From assembly GCF_020622355.1 (NCBI RefSeq), contig NZ_WHVL01000001.1, positions 1,054,001-1,118,000 of the forward strand: DNA of 64,000 nucleotides, given 5' to 3'. Numbering within the stretch: the stretch's first letter is position 1; each line of letters starts with the position of its first letter. Of this stretch, positions 44,553-49,140 are shown piece by piece. The translations under genes and the position numbers were made by a program. The stretch comes from Vreelandella malpeensis. GTDB taxonomy: Bacteria; Pseudomonadota; Gammaproteobacteria; Pseudomonadales; Halomonadaceae. Under the pieces are notes generated by a model. The model worked only from the letters and a program-made list of their open reading frames with translations, did no database searches and was not told the origin of the DNA.

Positions 44553-45844
44553 CAGTTCGGCTCCGTCGAGGTGGTCAGCACGACGCGCACACGCGCGAAG
44601 TCGAGCGCTCCCAGGCGCGCTTCAAGGTCGTCGATGGCGGGGGCAAGACGCTGGCGCGTGGCTTCGTCTGCGGCCTGAATCTCGACGCCGAGCGTCGTCT
44701 GGTAGAGTGACAGTGCGATCTGAAACGCACCGATCTCGGGCACGTCGAGCTGCATCTGCGAGCGCCACGCCTGCTCTTGCTCGCCGCCGCTCTCCTCCTC
44801 CCCGCCCTGCCGACGCCCGGGCGCGCTGATCAACAGCGCCATGAAGACGCCCGCCCAGACATCACCCTCCCAGCGCAGCACGGGCGTGGCGAGCATTTCG
44901 AGCTGCTGGCGCACCAGCCCCTGCAGGCTCTCGTGAACGACCTCGCGCTTGTGGGGCGATATCGCCTCGAACTCGCGCAGCGCAGCGGCGTCGCGAAGCG
45001 CGCTCGCCCGCGCCGATGACTCGTCGCTTGGCGATACCGCCGCACTGCTCGGCGCGACACCAGCCGCGGTACGCTCGAAAGCGGGTCGATCGACGTCAGG
45101 CATGGCGCCCGGCGCCCCCGTCGGCAAGGCCCCGGTGGCAGGGGCAGCAGCGGGCAGAGGGACCGGCGCGCCGAGAAGCGCCGCCCCTTGGGGGACGGGC
45201 ACGGCCAGCAGCGGCGTGCCGGGCAGGATACTCGTGAAAAGGGGCGCCGACGGTGACCCGGACACCGCGCTCGCGCCAGGCAGGTTCGCCGGCATCGGTG
45301 GCGAGTGGCCAGCCAGGGGCCGGGCGAGCTGCATCTGCGGCTCGCGCAGCAGCTGCTGGCGAGACACGTCGCCTTGGAACCAGCGCTTCAAGTGCGCTTC
45401 ATAGAACAGGCCGCTGTCACGGATGCTGGTATCGAGCCGCCCGGCCAGCGCTCGGGCGTCCGGCGCCTCGCCGGCGGCCATCAATGGCGCCTCGGTACGT
45501 AGCGCTGCAGGCGGGGCGGGAAAGCGTAGTAGTACATCGGCGATACTGCGTGCCGCGGGGCTGAAATGGGTCTGGGTCGAGCCGGGAGGCGCCTCGCCGG
45601 ACGGGCTTGGTGCCGGGCGCCCGCCCTGGGGTAGCGACGGCGGCAGCCGGCGCAGCTCATCGATGTTGCGCTCGGCGGGAGTGAGCCGGCCATCCAGGCT
45701 GGCATCCCGGGAGAGCGCGCGCGGCCCCTCGCCAGGGGTGACCGGCTGGACCGGCGCGTTGATCGAACGCTGCTGGGACGCCTCGCCCTGGCGCCCTAAT
45801 ACCTGATGCATCAGGGTATCGATCAACGGCGTGATGCCGCTCAC
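44552..45844 (-). CDS. FliK-like hook-length-control-related protein
   Basis: A 430-residue Pro/Ala/Gly-rich protein with a more ordered C-terminal domain (QLDVPEIGAFQIALSLYQTT through FARVRVVLTT) resembling the FliK C-terminal fold. It precedes the flhX-like gene, a pairing seen for FliK-like proteins. It is not the main fliK, which lies at 55108. Start is GTG at 45844, overlapping the fliT stop (GTGA). Confidence 0.6.
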   Translation of the reverse strand: MSGITPLIDTLMHQVLGRQGEASQQRSINAPVQPVTPGEGPRALSRDASLDGRLTPAERNIDELRRLPPSLPQGGRPAPSPSGEAPPGSTQTHFSPAARSIADVLLRFPAPPAALRTEAPLMAAGEAPDARALAGRLDTSIRDSGLFYEAHLKRWFQGDVSRQQLLREPQMQLARPLAGHSPPMPANLPGASAVSGSPSAPLFTSILPGTPLLAVPVPQGAALLGAPVPLPAAAPATGALPTGAPGAMPDVDRPAFERTAAGVAPSSAAVSPSDESSARASALRDAAALREFEAISPHKREVVHESLQGLVRQQLEMLATPVLRWEGDVWAGVFMALLISAPGRRQGGEEESGGEQEQAWRSQMQLDVPEIGAFQIALSLYQTTLGVEIQAADEATRQRLAPAIDDLEARLGALDFARVRVVLTTSTEPN

Positions 45845-46230
45845 GACGGGGTGTCGTCCTGCGGGGAATCGAGGCCTTGCTGTGGTGCGTAGGCGCGATG
45901 CAGGTCGCGCTGCTTGCGGGAGACGCCGATCAGCTTGCCGAGCTCGTCGCGCCGGGCGACCAGCCGACGCCGAATATCGACATCGTGCTCGAGGATGCGC
46001 TCGATCAGCTCTGCCTTGCGCGTTCTACCGGCCTCGTCCAGGGCGACGCTCTCGTCGAGCTCGCGAAGCTTATCGACGAGCATGACGTAGTGCGTACGCT
46101 GCTCGATAAGCTCCGCCCACTGCTCGGTGCTCGCCAGTATTTGCATCTGCGCCGAGCGTTCGAGCAGCTCATGATAGGTGTCCAGCAGGCGCTGCTGAGT
46201 CTCGATGCGCGCCATTTCAGAAGCGGACAT
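45841..46230 (-). CDS. fliT: Flagellar chaperone FliT
   Basis: A 129-residue helical protein (MSASEMARIETQQRLLDTYH start) of FliT type, the export chaperone for FliD that can also bind FlhDC. Position between fliS and the FliK-like gene supports the call; the family is weakly conserved. I chose ATG 46230 (GAGG six bases upstream) over GTG 46242, which overlaps the fliS stop. fliD itself is not in this window. Confidence 0.75.
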   Translation of the reverse strand: MSASEMARIETQQRLLDTYHELLERSAQMQILASTEQWAELIEQRTHYVMLVDKLRELDESVALDEAGRTRKAELIERILEHDVDIRRRLVARRDELGKLIGVSRKQRDLHRAYAPQQGLDSPQDDTPS

Positions 46231-46238
46231 GGGTTGCC

Positions 46239-46652
46239 TCACGCACTTTGTCGTTGACCGATTTCGCGCCAGGCCGAGGCGATGTCCTCGAGCAGGCGCT
46301 CCGCTTGATCGAGGCTCTCGGCGTCGTTGCGCAGGTTGGCGGTGAGCAGCAGCCGGGCGATATAGTCGTAGAGCGAGCCCAGGCGCTCGGCGATATCGCC
46401 GCCCTTCTCCTGGTCAAGCGCCGCGGCCAGCCCGTTGTTGACGATATCCAAGGCCTTCGAGATAAAGCGCCCCTTCTCGGCCGTGTTGCCGGCCTGCATG
46501 TGGATACGCGCCGCACGGATCGCCGCCTGAGCGCCATCGAACAGCATGACGATCAGCTGATGGGGGTCTGCCGACATGACGCCGCTTTCCACACCGACGC
46601 GGGCGTAGGCACTGGCCCCCCGGCCGTAAGCGCCGCTTCGAGAGTAGGTCAT
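46239..46652 (-). CDS. fliS: Flagellin chaperone FliS
   Basis: A 137-residue chaperone that binds the flagellin C-terminus. SADPHQLIVMLFDGAQAAI and GRFISKALDIVNNGLAAAL are typical. A close sigma-28 promoter match lies about 80 bases upstream. fliT follows. Confidence 0.95.
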   Translation of the reverse strand: MTYSRSGAYGRGASAYARVGVESGVMSADPHQLIVMLFDGAQAAIRAARIHMQAGNTAEKGRFISKALDIVNNGLAAALDQEKGGDIAERLGSLYDYIARLLLTANLRNDAESLDQAERLLEDIASAWREIGQRQSA

Positions 46653-46799: not shown

Positions 46800-48497
46800 T
46801 CAGGTCGAGACCGCCACCTCACGCCGAGGCTTGCCGAGGCGCTCGGCGACGTCGCCAGCGACGCTGTATTTCAGCGTGCCGCGCAGCGGCGCCACGGCCT
46901 GATCGGTGACTACCACTTCCAGGGGCGCGCCGTCATCGTCGAGGCGCACGATCCAGGCGAGTTGCTCGCTGGAGAACTGTACCAGCGAGCCGATGGGCAG
47001 CGAGGTGAAGTGGTCGATGTAGCGTTTGACCCAGCGCGCGTCGAACTGGTTCGGATGGCGCAGCAGGTGGCGGTAGATCTCCTGGGTGGTTTTCGCGGGG
47101 CGGTCCGGGCGATCCCGACGCATCGCCTCGACCACGTCGATGATGGCGCAGGCCTTGGAGAGCTCGTTGATCTGCTCACCGCTGAGCCGGTCGGGGTAAC
47201 CGCTGCCGTCGAGACGCTCGTTGATACCCTTGATCACCGTCTGGGCGACGTTCTGCGAGAGCCACTGGCAGCTTTTCAGGCGCTGCAGCAAGAGCGCGGC
47301 GTGCTCGCTGAGCGCCTCGCGATGCGTCGCCTCGAACTGGGGAGCGGTATAGATGATCTGGGGAATCAGTGCCTTGCCCAGGTCATGTACCAGGGCGCTG
47401 GCGACGATCGCCTTGCGTACGTCGCCAGGCAGATCGTCACCGACCCAGTCCAGCAGGTGGATCGCCACGGCGATGCCGTGGCGCACCAGCACCGGCTCCA
47501 GCGACAGGCAGCGCGAAGCGAACAGCAGCGCCTGACGATCCTCTTCGTGCAGGGCGATGATCCGGTCGGCGTTGAGCGAGAGCTGGCGCGAATCGATGTC
47601 GCTGCCTTGGGTGAGCAGCAAGAGCTGGGCGTTGAGATAGGCCGCCACCTTCACCAGCCGCCGCGCGGCGGGGGTGGCGTAGTGCTTGAGATCGCGACGA
47701 CCCACCTGCTGCTGCTCGCTTTTCTCCGCGCCCTGCGGGTCGAACAGCGGCGATGACTGGCGCGCATCCTCGGTGGCCTCCTTGTCGTAGGAGGTCGCCT
47801 CGCGTTCGATCTCGCAGACGAAGTACCAGATCTTGCGCGACTGCTCGGCGCTGTGGTCGACGAACTCGAAACCGACGCGCAGCAGGTGGTACTCGGCGTC
47901 GGTCAACTGATGCCGGCTTTCGGCATCGACGGAGAACTCGGTGCCATCAGGAAAGGCGTAGGTCAGGGTGAGCGGCGAACAAGAGCGGGCCAGCAGGCCG
48001 CTGGCGCTCAAGGGCAGTTCCACCTGGCAGCCGCTCTGGGAAAGATCGCGCAGCTCCCCCTTGACGCTCTCGCCGTGATCGTCGGTCACGGTGACGGCAA
48101 CGACCATGCCCATGCGCAGCTGGGCACGGAACGACTCGCGTCGCTGCAGCACCCAGAGCGCCTCCGGGTACTGGCTGCAACAAAGAAAACGCCCGCCGGA
48201 GTGGCGAGCCTCGGTCAGTGTCAGCGCGGGCGTGCGGATCACCTTGCCCTGGGACTGCCCGCGAAGGTAGAAGGGTTCCGCGGCCTGCAGCCTCGAAAGC
48301 AGATGACCGATCGAGGAGAGATCCATGACCAGCGTGTCGCCGGGGTGCTGTTCCATCAGGACAATGGGCTCGGGCGTGGCCTCCGGCGTCATCAGGCAAA
48401 GCGAGACCCCGCCGCCTTCGATCATCGTATCGAGCAGCGCCCCGATGGCCGCGGCGCTCGTTACGCTCTCATACCCTTCGTGCTCCACTTCCGTCAC
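46800..48497 (-). CDS. YcgR-N / PilZ / HD-GYP fusion protein
   Basis: A 565-residue protein with three recognisable parts. Residues ~15-115 resemble the YcgR N-terminal domain; PilZ follows with the c-di-GMP motifs RRESFR (119-124) and DLSQSG (151-156); residues ~330-510 form an HD-GYP-like domain with HD (371-372 in LVHDLGKALIP), a further His399 and LDGSGYP (429-435). The usual HHE before DGxGYP reads INE here, so the metal site is incomplete and phosphodiesterase activity is doubtful. YcgR slows flagellar rotation in response to c-di-GMP. Start is GTG at 48497 with GGAGG upstream. It lies beside fliS and flaG. Confidence 0.82.
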   Translation of the reverse strand: MTEVEHEGYESVTSAAAIGALLDTMIEGGGVSLCLMTPEATPEPIVLMEQHPGDTLVMDLSSIGHLLSRLQAAEPFYLRGQSQGKVIRTPALTLTEARHSGGRFLCCSQYPEALWVLQRRESFRAQLRMGMVVAVTVTDDHGESVKGELRDLSQSGCQVELPLSASGLLARSCSPLTLTYAFPDGTEFSVDAESRHQLTDAEYHLLRVGFEFVDHSAEQSRKIWYFVCEIEREATSYDKEATEDARQSSPLFDPQGAEKSEQQQVGRRDLKHYATPAARRLVKVAAYLNAQLLLLTQGSDIDSRQLSLNADRIIALHEEDRQALLFASRCLSLEPVLVRHGIAVAIHLLDWVGDDLPGDVRKAIVASALVHDLGKALIPQIIYTAPQFEATHREALSEHAALLLQRLKSCQWLSQNVAQTVIKGINERLDGSGYPDRLSGEQINELSKACAIIDVVEAMRRDRPDRPAKTTQEIYRHLLRHPNQFDARWVKRYIDHFTSLPIGSLVQFSSEQLAWIVRLDDDGAPLEVVVTDQAVAPLRGTLKYSVAGDVAERLGKPRREVAVST

Positions 48498-48653
48498 CTG
48501 TCTCGCCTCCGCCGGCCGGCGCTAGCGATTAGCGCCGATCCACTGACAACGAGCATAGCAAAGGTCAAGAACGCTCATATCGTTATAAAACGCGGCGCAA
48601 GCGGCTATTTTCGACGTTTGATATGCGTTTTTCGATAGGTTATTCGGGCGGAG

Positions 48654-48680
48654 TAAAGTTTCAGCATCGTTAGCCGATAC
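48654..48680 (+). promoter_or_regulatory. Sigma-28 (FliA) promoter for flaG
   Basis: TAAAGTTT (48654-48661), 11 bases, GCCGATAC (48673-48680): one mismatch to the consensus. It lies about 90 bases upstream of flaG, in the divergent gap shared with the YcgR/HD-GYP gene. Confidence 0.92.
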
Positions 48681-48771: not shown

Positions 48772-49140
48772 ATGGACTCTTTACCACTGGACAGCAGCCT
48801 CGCACCGGCCACCGCCTCTACATCGCAGCTCTCGCCCCAGCAGGTTCAGACGCTGCGTCAGGAGATCGAGACGCGTGCTACCGCCGTGCCTGCAAGCACC
48901 GAGACCCGCGCCGTCGAACTTTCCCGCGAGGAGCTCGAAGAGCCCATCGAACGCATCAACAACGCGCTGCGCCCGCGCGGGCTCGAGTTCGATGTCAGCG
49001 ACGAGTCGTCGCGCATCATCGCACGGGTGATCGATCGCGAGACCGGGGACGTGATCCGCCAGATTCCCGGCGAGGAAGTGCTGGCCGTGGCCAGGCGCAT
49101 CGAGGAGATGCAGAGCGGCCTCATCTCGATCGAGGCCTGA
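48772..49140 (+). CDS. flaG: FlaG-family flagellar protein
   Basis: A 122-residue protein of the FlaG family: a variable Ser/Thr/Gln-rich N-terminus, then IERINNALRPRGLEFDVSDE and VIRQIPGEEVLAVARRIEEM. FlaG affects filament length in several bacteria. It has its own sigma-28 promoter and faces fliE convergently. Confidence 0.88.
   Translation: MDSLPLDSSLAPATASTSQLSPQQVQTLRQEIETRATAVPASTETRAVELSREELEEPIERINNALRPRGLEFDVSDESSRIIARVIDRETGDVIRQIPGEEVLAVARRIEEMQSGLISIEA

Follow-up and report, generated by a model that had tools for sequence, protein, structure and literature searches.

The 565-amino-acid protein described here joins the PilZN-PilZ pair of the YcgR and FlgZ flagellar brakes, through a linker, to a domain of the HD-GYP fold in which the metal-binding His pair has been replaced. 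We consider it, with a probability of roughly 0.55, to be a YcgR/FlgZ-type flagellar brake under c-di-GMP control that carries a receptor-type, non-hydrolytic HD-GYP module at its C-terminus. The gene lies in a window of 64,000 nucleotides from Vreelandella malpeensis (the whole stretch of DNA analyzed, in whose positions all coordinates are given), and its limits and strand are those originally predicted, with a GTG start codon at 48497, a GGAGG ribosome-binding site at 48510-48506 and a stop codon ending at 46800. The predicted fusion of a YcgR-PilZ brake to an HD-GYP-like domain was borne out by Pfam matches over the cut-off to PilZ and HD_5 (the latter at residues 363-487, E 3.2e-14) and by structure-profile matches to FlgZ/PP4397 and YcgR, while an NCBIfam search of the protein returned sub-cutoff matches only. 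The gene, its parts and its neighbors are as follows.

46800..48497, reverse strand: whole gene (PilZN-PilZ-linker-HD-GYP-like-C-terminal tail), 565 aa, GTG start
48506..48510, reverse strand: ribosome-binding site GGAGG, 8 nt before the GTG, read directly
48162..48455, reverse strand: PilZN (YcgR_N) half, about residues 15-112, by profile match to PP4397 and YcgR, with weak model matches
47826..48146, reverse strand: PilZ domain, residues 118-224 (Pfam PF07238, E 1.3e-11, over the cut-off)
48126..48143, reverse strand: RRxxxR c-di-GMP motif, residues 119-124, intact
48030..48047, reverse strand: DxSxxG c-di-GMP motif, residues 151-156, intact
47742..47753, reverse strand: SPLF linker motif, residues 249-252 (S249, L251 and F252 invariant in 20 family rows)
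46968..47528, reverse strand: HD-GYP-fold domain, residues about 324-510 (Pfam HD_5; model matches to DvhD, PmGH and PA4781)
47382..47387, reverse strand: HD pair H371-D372, kept in 59/59 orthologs
47217..47225, reverse strand: INE replacing HHE, residues 425-427 (motif reading and ortholog conservation)
47193..47201, reverse strand: GYP, residues 433-435 (motif reading)
47100..47111, reverse strand: R463 to R466, nucleotide-contact equivalents (aligned with PmGH R314/K317 and DvhD R650/R653)
46239..46652, reverse strand: fliS (Pfam FliS, E 2e-36)
45841..46242, reverse strand: fliT (Pfam FliT, E 5e-17)
48772..49140, forward strand: flaG, divergent neighbor (Pfam FlaG, E 5.7e-18)
48654..48680, forward strand: sigma-28-like promoter towards flaG, from the shared intergenic region (11/12 letters of the consensus)

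Domain calls in the brake half rest on sequence profiles because the structural models are poor or middling there. The full-length AlphaFold model had a mean pLDDT of 51.7 and was poor outside residues about 340-500, and the best matches of the N-terminal model (mean pLDDT 55.5) reached Z 7.9 (rmsd 15.4) and 7.0, with 2gjg at Z 7.0 and the N-terminal domain of YcgR (5y6h) at Z 6.1, all in a range (Z < 8) that may mean little. Compared with solved structures, a 20-row family profile aligned with FlgZ/PP4397 over positions 13-245 (E 8e-22), with E. coli YcgR over positions 58-252 and, in its C-terminal half, with PmGH, DvhD and further HD-GYP proteins of known structure. When the N-terminal half was profiled alone, PP4397 (E 2.9e-37) and YcgR (E 5.6e-8) came out nearest. 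PilZN received no Pfam call in the window protein itself, and the same domain (PF07317) passed the cut-off in two distant long forms of the family (L107 and L109) and fell just below it in a third (L111). The profiles and the Pfam PilZ match together give the PilZN-then-PilZ order of the YcgR/FlgZ brakes, and the RxxxR and (D/N)xSxxG motifs of those brakes are found at residues 119-124 and 151-156. Both YcgR and FlgZ reduce swimming in response to c-di-GMP, according to the available portions of their descriptions (PMC6093933, PMC3913639). Genome-wide searches gave 22 GGDEF and 14 EAL matches, one HD_5 match (the fusion) and two PilZ proteins, the second of which has about 110 aa, is encoded between holB-like and tatD-like genes and has neither RxxxR nor (D/N)xSxxG. 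The fusion is thus the genome's only PilZ protein with the RxxxR motif and the only candidate YcgR-type brake found by the PilZ search. Directly after the PilZ C-terminal helix stands the SPLF motif, or P-x-x-F in distant forms (L107-L111, L136-L139, L150); a loose SPLF-type pattern matched 86/91 long forms, and the motif was absent at the end of the sole stand-alone FlgZ inspected (L149). It is a possible docking peptide.

The C-terminal half has the HD-GYP fold, as judged by the HD_5 match and by the structural matches of the model, the best of which in the PDB was DvhD with c-di-GMP (9rbz; Z 21.4, rmsd 4.7, 204 residues), followed by DvhD 9rc0 (Z 18.4), PmGH (18.4) and PA4781 (18.1). DvhD was also among the nearest proteins in sequence searches and came first in the fold search. 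The HD and GYP motifs that were predicted to remain are present at H371-D372 and residues 433-435, and INE had been read correctly at the His-pair position, where I425-N426 precede E427 in place of HH: the protein reads INERLDGSGYP against HHExxDGxGYP, and both metal-binding His are missing. The HH pair occurred in 0/91 long forms (59 orthologs, 11 paralogs and 21 more distant proteins) and in 20/20 HD-GYP comparators (15 of the same order and 5 from viral contigs), the order comparators being drawn from the best-scoring family-profile matches, a selection that favors likeness to the fusion family; M or F replaces the HD His in four of these 15. All 15 loci on viral contigs read HHE, in a set biased towards that type of motif because the pattern ERLDGSGY was used in part to find it. 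The 59 orthologs comprise the window protein, the 29 next best matches of the genus and 29 hand-picked from the other listed family matches. H340, H371, D372, K375, H399, E427, Y434, D454 and R466 are invariant among them, N426, R463 and M459 are kept in 58, and P379, which aligns with P567 of the DvhD bridging site, in 56; position 425 varies among I, V, A and S. With the Asn state nearly fixed (N426 in 58/59) and the domain under purifying selection, an active site altered by chance or by recent decay can be dismissed.

The nearest precedent is a receptor. In the available part of its description (PMC13090378), DvhD (DVU1020 of Desulfovibrio vulgaris) has SQ for HD and, where the His pair would stand, Met-Asn. 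Its PAS/HD-GYP part binds c-di-GMP with a Kd of 99 nM; DvhD does not hydrolyze the ligand, needs no metal for binding and changes its dimer when c-di-GMP is bound. By alignment, its residues R650, R653, M646 and Y621 correspond to R463, R466, M459 and Y434 of the window protein, and the PmGH contacts Y285, R314 and K317 to Y434, R463 and R466; two further DvhD contacts, Y652 and E668, are not conserved, the aligned residues being D465 and H481. The window protein therefore has the make-up of a receptor-type HD-GYP domain, with the His pair lost and the pocket kept, though not every DvhD contact is retained. We take this half to be a putatively non-hydrolytic and probably c-di-GMP-binding module. 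The original suggestion that the domain may not be an enzyme draws support from the fixed loss of the His pair, from PmGH mutants considered below and from the DvhD precedent.

Substitution rates differed between the two halves. At about 80% identity, dN was 0.08 in the HD half and 0.16-0.17 in the brake half. Nine pairs were compared, of which saturated dS left five with dN/dS for both halves; in these the ratio of the HD half was 0.03-0.12 and lay below that of the brake half in four, the exception being the closest pair (L007, 98% identical; 0.027 against 0.019). By these values the HD half is mostly the more constrained of the two in the window lineage, and the combined protein is kept under strong selection in relatives.

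The survey of related genomes that had been proposed with the prediction found the fusion across the genus and the family. Matches at 1e-20 were present in 70/82 genomes of the genus, one of which (G045) has the paralog only and was counted as without the fusion; the remaining 69 include two low-quality assemblies with the match in pieces (G030 and G074). In the family, 217/275 genomes had matches at E 1e-10, paralogs and plain HD-GYP proteins included, and in the order 125/390 had an N-terminal match at 1e-12. Among the order matches listed, frames above 500 aa occurred only in families f1, f6, f37, f40 and f43, as found with a profile that itself contains long forms and favors them, and the YcgR-like protein stands alone elsewhere, in short-form frames of 180 to 424 aa, mostly 230-330. 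Matches throughout genus, family and order exclude a curiosity of one genome. In the class (369 genomes) four genomes passed 1e-42, and only G815 lies outside the order. G815 encodes a paralog-type protein and a lone 261-aa brake half (L150, 2720-3502) that ends just past the linker motif, which we read as a case in nature where the HD half was lost or split off. In a tree of HD domains, all 69 long forms kept form one clade among DUF3391-type HD-GYP proteins (SH-aLRT 91, unstarred); three forms with no HD core (L109, L110 and L139) were left out of this tree, close genus rows were thinned, and L112 and L138 sit on long branches. The single clade would fit one fusion event, with the His pair lost at the base of the clade, and the NE-GYP form is of long standing in the family.

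Other branches of the family have lost more of the HD site. The fusions examined in f6, f37 and f40 have neither the GYP Tyr nor the R463 Arg, and ligand binding is therefore no general property of the fusion. None of the seven f6/f37 fusions with an HD core (L107, L108, L111, L116, L136, L137 and L138) keeps the GYP Tyr, the R463 Arg or H399, and in three the D of HD is changed too; three further f6 forms (L109, L110 and L139) have lost most of the HD core; the fusion persists all the same. D372 is lost in 6/11 and D454 in 7/11 paralogs. Such cases speak for an HD-GYP half that would be a structural or dimerizing scaffold only, with no nucleotide bound and the brake acting through the PilZ half alone. 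For the window lineage we find this explanation possible but rather doubtful, because the invariant pocket and five metal ligands of the 59 orthologs, together with the mostly slower evolution of the HD half, go beyond what plain scaffolding needs. The paralogs form a clade of their own (L065-L075) at about 30% identity, with no fliS nearby and a step-wise loss of HD-site residues; a relative on a Pantoea plasmid adjoins an EAL gene (L152, 4001-5299).

The retained metal ligands bear on whether the domain might still be catalytic. PmGH binds its metals through E185, H189, H221, D222, H250, H276, H277 and D305, and the residue at the E185 position varies among HD-GYP proteins too, as stated in the accessible portion of PMC4159591. 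The equivalents in the window protein, assigned by alignment and, upstream of the aligned part, by counting from H340, are V336, H340, H371, D372, H399, I425, N426 and D454; residue by residue, five of the eight PmGH-type ligands are retained, and both members of the His pair are lost. Five ligands are more than a pure receptor needs, given that DvhD, in the text available, has SQ for HD and needs no metal to bind. An enzyme whose metal site is unusual (H, HD, H, N, D), through which the brake would locally degrade its own signal or a related molecule such as pGpG, would fit a pattern that is fixed and not decaying (H340, H371, D372, K375, H399 and D454 in 59/59, N426 in 58/59). Asn is a possible metal ligand in other phosphoesterases. 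We nonetheless judge residual catalysis improbable, since Ala at either His of the PmGH pair (H276A, H277A) essentially abolished activity (PMC4159591, in the same portion) and DvhD with its Met-Asn does not hydrolyze c-di-GMP, although HD is absent there too (PMC13090378, available part). Similarly unlikely is a brake with two reading sites, in which PilZ would read c-di-GMP and the fixed NE-GYP site, whose HD metal ligands are retained, would read a second nucleotide (pGpG or cGAMP), or slowly turn its ligand over with Asn as a metal ligand; such a protein would measure a ratio or time its own release.

Genes for FliS, FliT, FlaG, FliE, a FliK-like protein, FlhC, FlhD and MotA surround the fusion gene, the first four confirmed by Pfam. 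At 46/59 ortholog loci fliS lies inside the fetched stretch; the other 13, all of them checked, lie near serB/parC-like genes (names from sequence) and not near flagellar genes. At L043, and at L112 in a different family, the genes run fliC, fusion, fliD, fliS (fliC and fliD named from sequence). Of the 82 genomes of the genus, 69 have both the fusion and FliS, 12 have neither (four of them, G051, G052, G065 and G072, less than 90% complete), one (G012) has FliS only and none the fusion only (Fisher p 1.6e-13, a value that ignores kinship), so that the fusion is encoded or lost with the flagellar genes even with 13/59 loci elsewhere in the genome. Genus g8 has 51 genomes that match at 1e-50, every one of them with FliS, and five FliS genomes without a match (by eye); three of six g6 genomes have FliS but no match, and FliS-bearing g9 and others are likewise without one (by eye). 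The predicted fit of the fliS and flaG neighborhood to a motility role thus appears sound, on the strength of the Pfam-confirmed neighbors, the recurrence of fliS and the co-occurrence with FliS in the genus. A sigma-28 promoter for the fusion gene itself was unsupported, the best upstream site scoring 9/12, and no conserved sigma-28 site was seen before the gene at 28 genus loci, where best scores of 7-9 equaled those of shuffled controls (means about 8). A c-di-GMP receptor for a non-motor output (surface or biofilm), merely near flagellar genes, is very improbable: the 13 ortholog loci near serB/parC-like genes, where other long forms (L088 and L095-L097 among them) are found too, the lack of a conserved sigma-28 promoter, the absence of fliS from the fetched stretches of all 11 paralog loci (0/11) and the paralog retained in FliS-less G045 would agree with it, but the genus counts for fusion and FliS, an N-terminal half nearest FlgZ and YcgR among solved structures and the only RxxxR PilZ protein of the genome argue against it.

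In a c-di-GMP-controlled brake with a receptor-type HD-GYP module, the PilZ half would bind c-di-GMP and meet the motor, by the precedent of FlgZ and YcgR. The HD-GYP half, which keeps the nucleotide pocket and some of the metal site and has lost both cutting His, would be a second ligand-binding and/or dimerizing module. Binding of c-di-GMP or a related nucleotide there may alter how the protein oligomerizes or where the brake half lies, and the module could in this way set the tightness of the brake or the c-di-GMP level at which it engages. A change of this kind, with its own partner, is proposed for DvhD in the available part of its report (PMC13090378). We counted against the brake reading the unkept DvhD contacts Y652 and E668, the 13/59 non-flagellar loci, the FliS-bearing relatives without the fusion, the dN/dS exception of L007, the lack of a conserved sigma-28 promoter and the weak model outside the HD region.

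The component parts are of known kinds. The joining of PilZN-PilZ to HD-GYP, the fixed NE-GYP site of the fusion and the spread of the fusion appear new, no description of them having been found in the open-access literature searched, as far as the text of its sources was available. Early PilZ surveys reportedly noted a combination of PilZ with HD-GYP already. If the brake reading is true, a large group of halophiles would set its motor braking with a two-module receptor and not with a single-site YcgR, and the protein would be, after DvhD, a second example of an HD-GYP enzyme domain that became a receptor, in this case with no membrane domains. HHE enzymes, NE-GYP fusions, fusions with a stripped HD site and core-deleted fusions form a natural series that could test what role a dead enzyme domain plays in a signaling protein.

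Among known systems, FlgZ/PP4397 of Pseudomonas and YcgR of E. coli share with the fusion the PilZN-PilZ order, the RxxxR and D/NxSxxG motifs and the flagellar neighborhood; these proteins stand alone and end after PilZ, whereas the fusion protein continues with a linker and an HD-GYP-fold half. The YcgR-GAZ proteins of Leptospirales are likewise YcgR homologues with an extra domain, but theirs is a GAF-like insert inside PilZ, according to the available portion of PMC11800159, and not a C-terminal HD-GYP fusion. PmGH, PA4781 and other HD-GYP phosphodiesterases have the fold, HDxGK, DGxGYP and the helix 10 Asp in common with the fusion, and HHE where the window protein has INE. Two DUF3391-HD-GYP proteins of the same order (L100 and L101) share its C-terminal stretch and carry DUF3391 where the fusion has PilZN-PilZ. 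With DvhD, a membrane dCache-PAS-HD-GYP receptor of a Lap-like system that has SQ for HD (PMC13090378, available part), the window protein has in common the Asn in the HH pair, the GYP loop and the contact Arg; unlike DvhD, it keeps HD and most metal ligands, and the partner of its HD-GYP half is a YcgR-type half.
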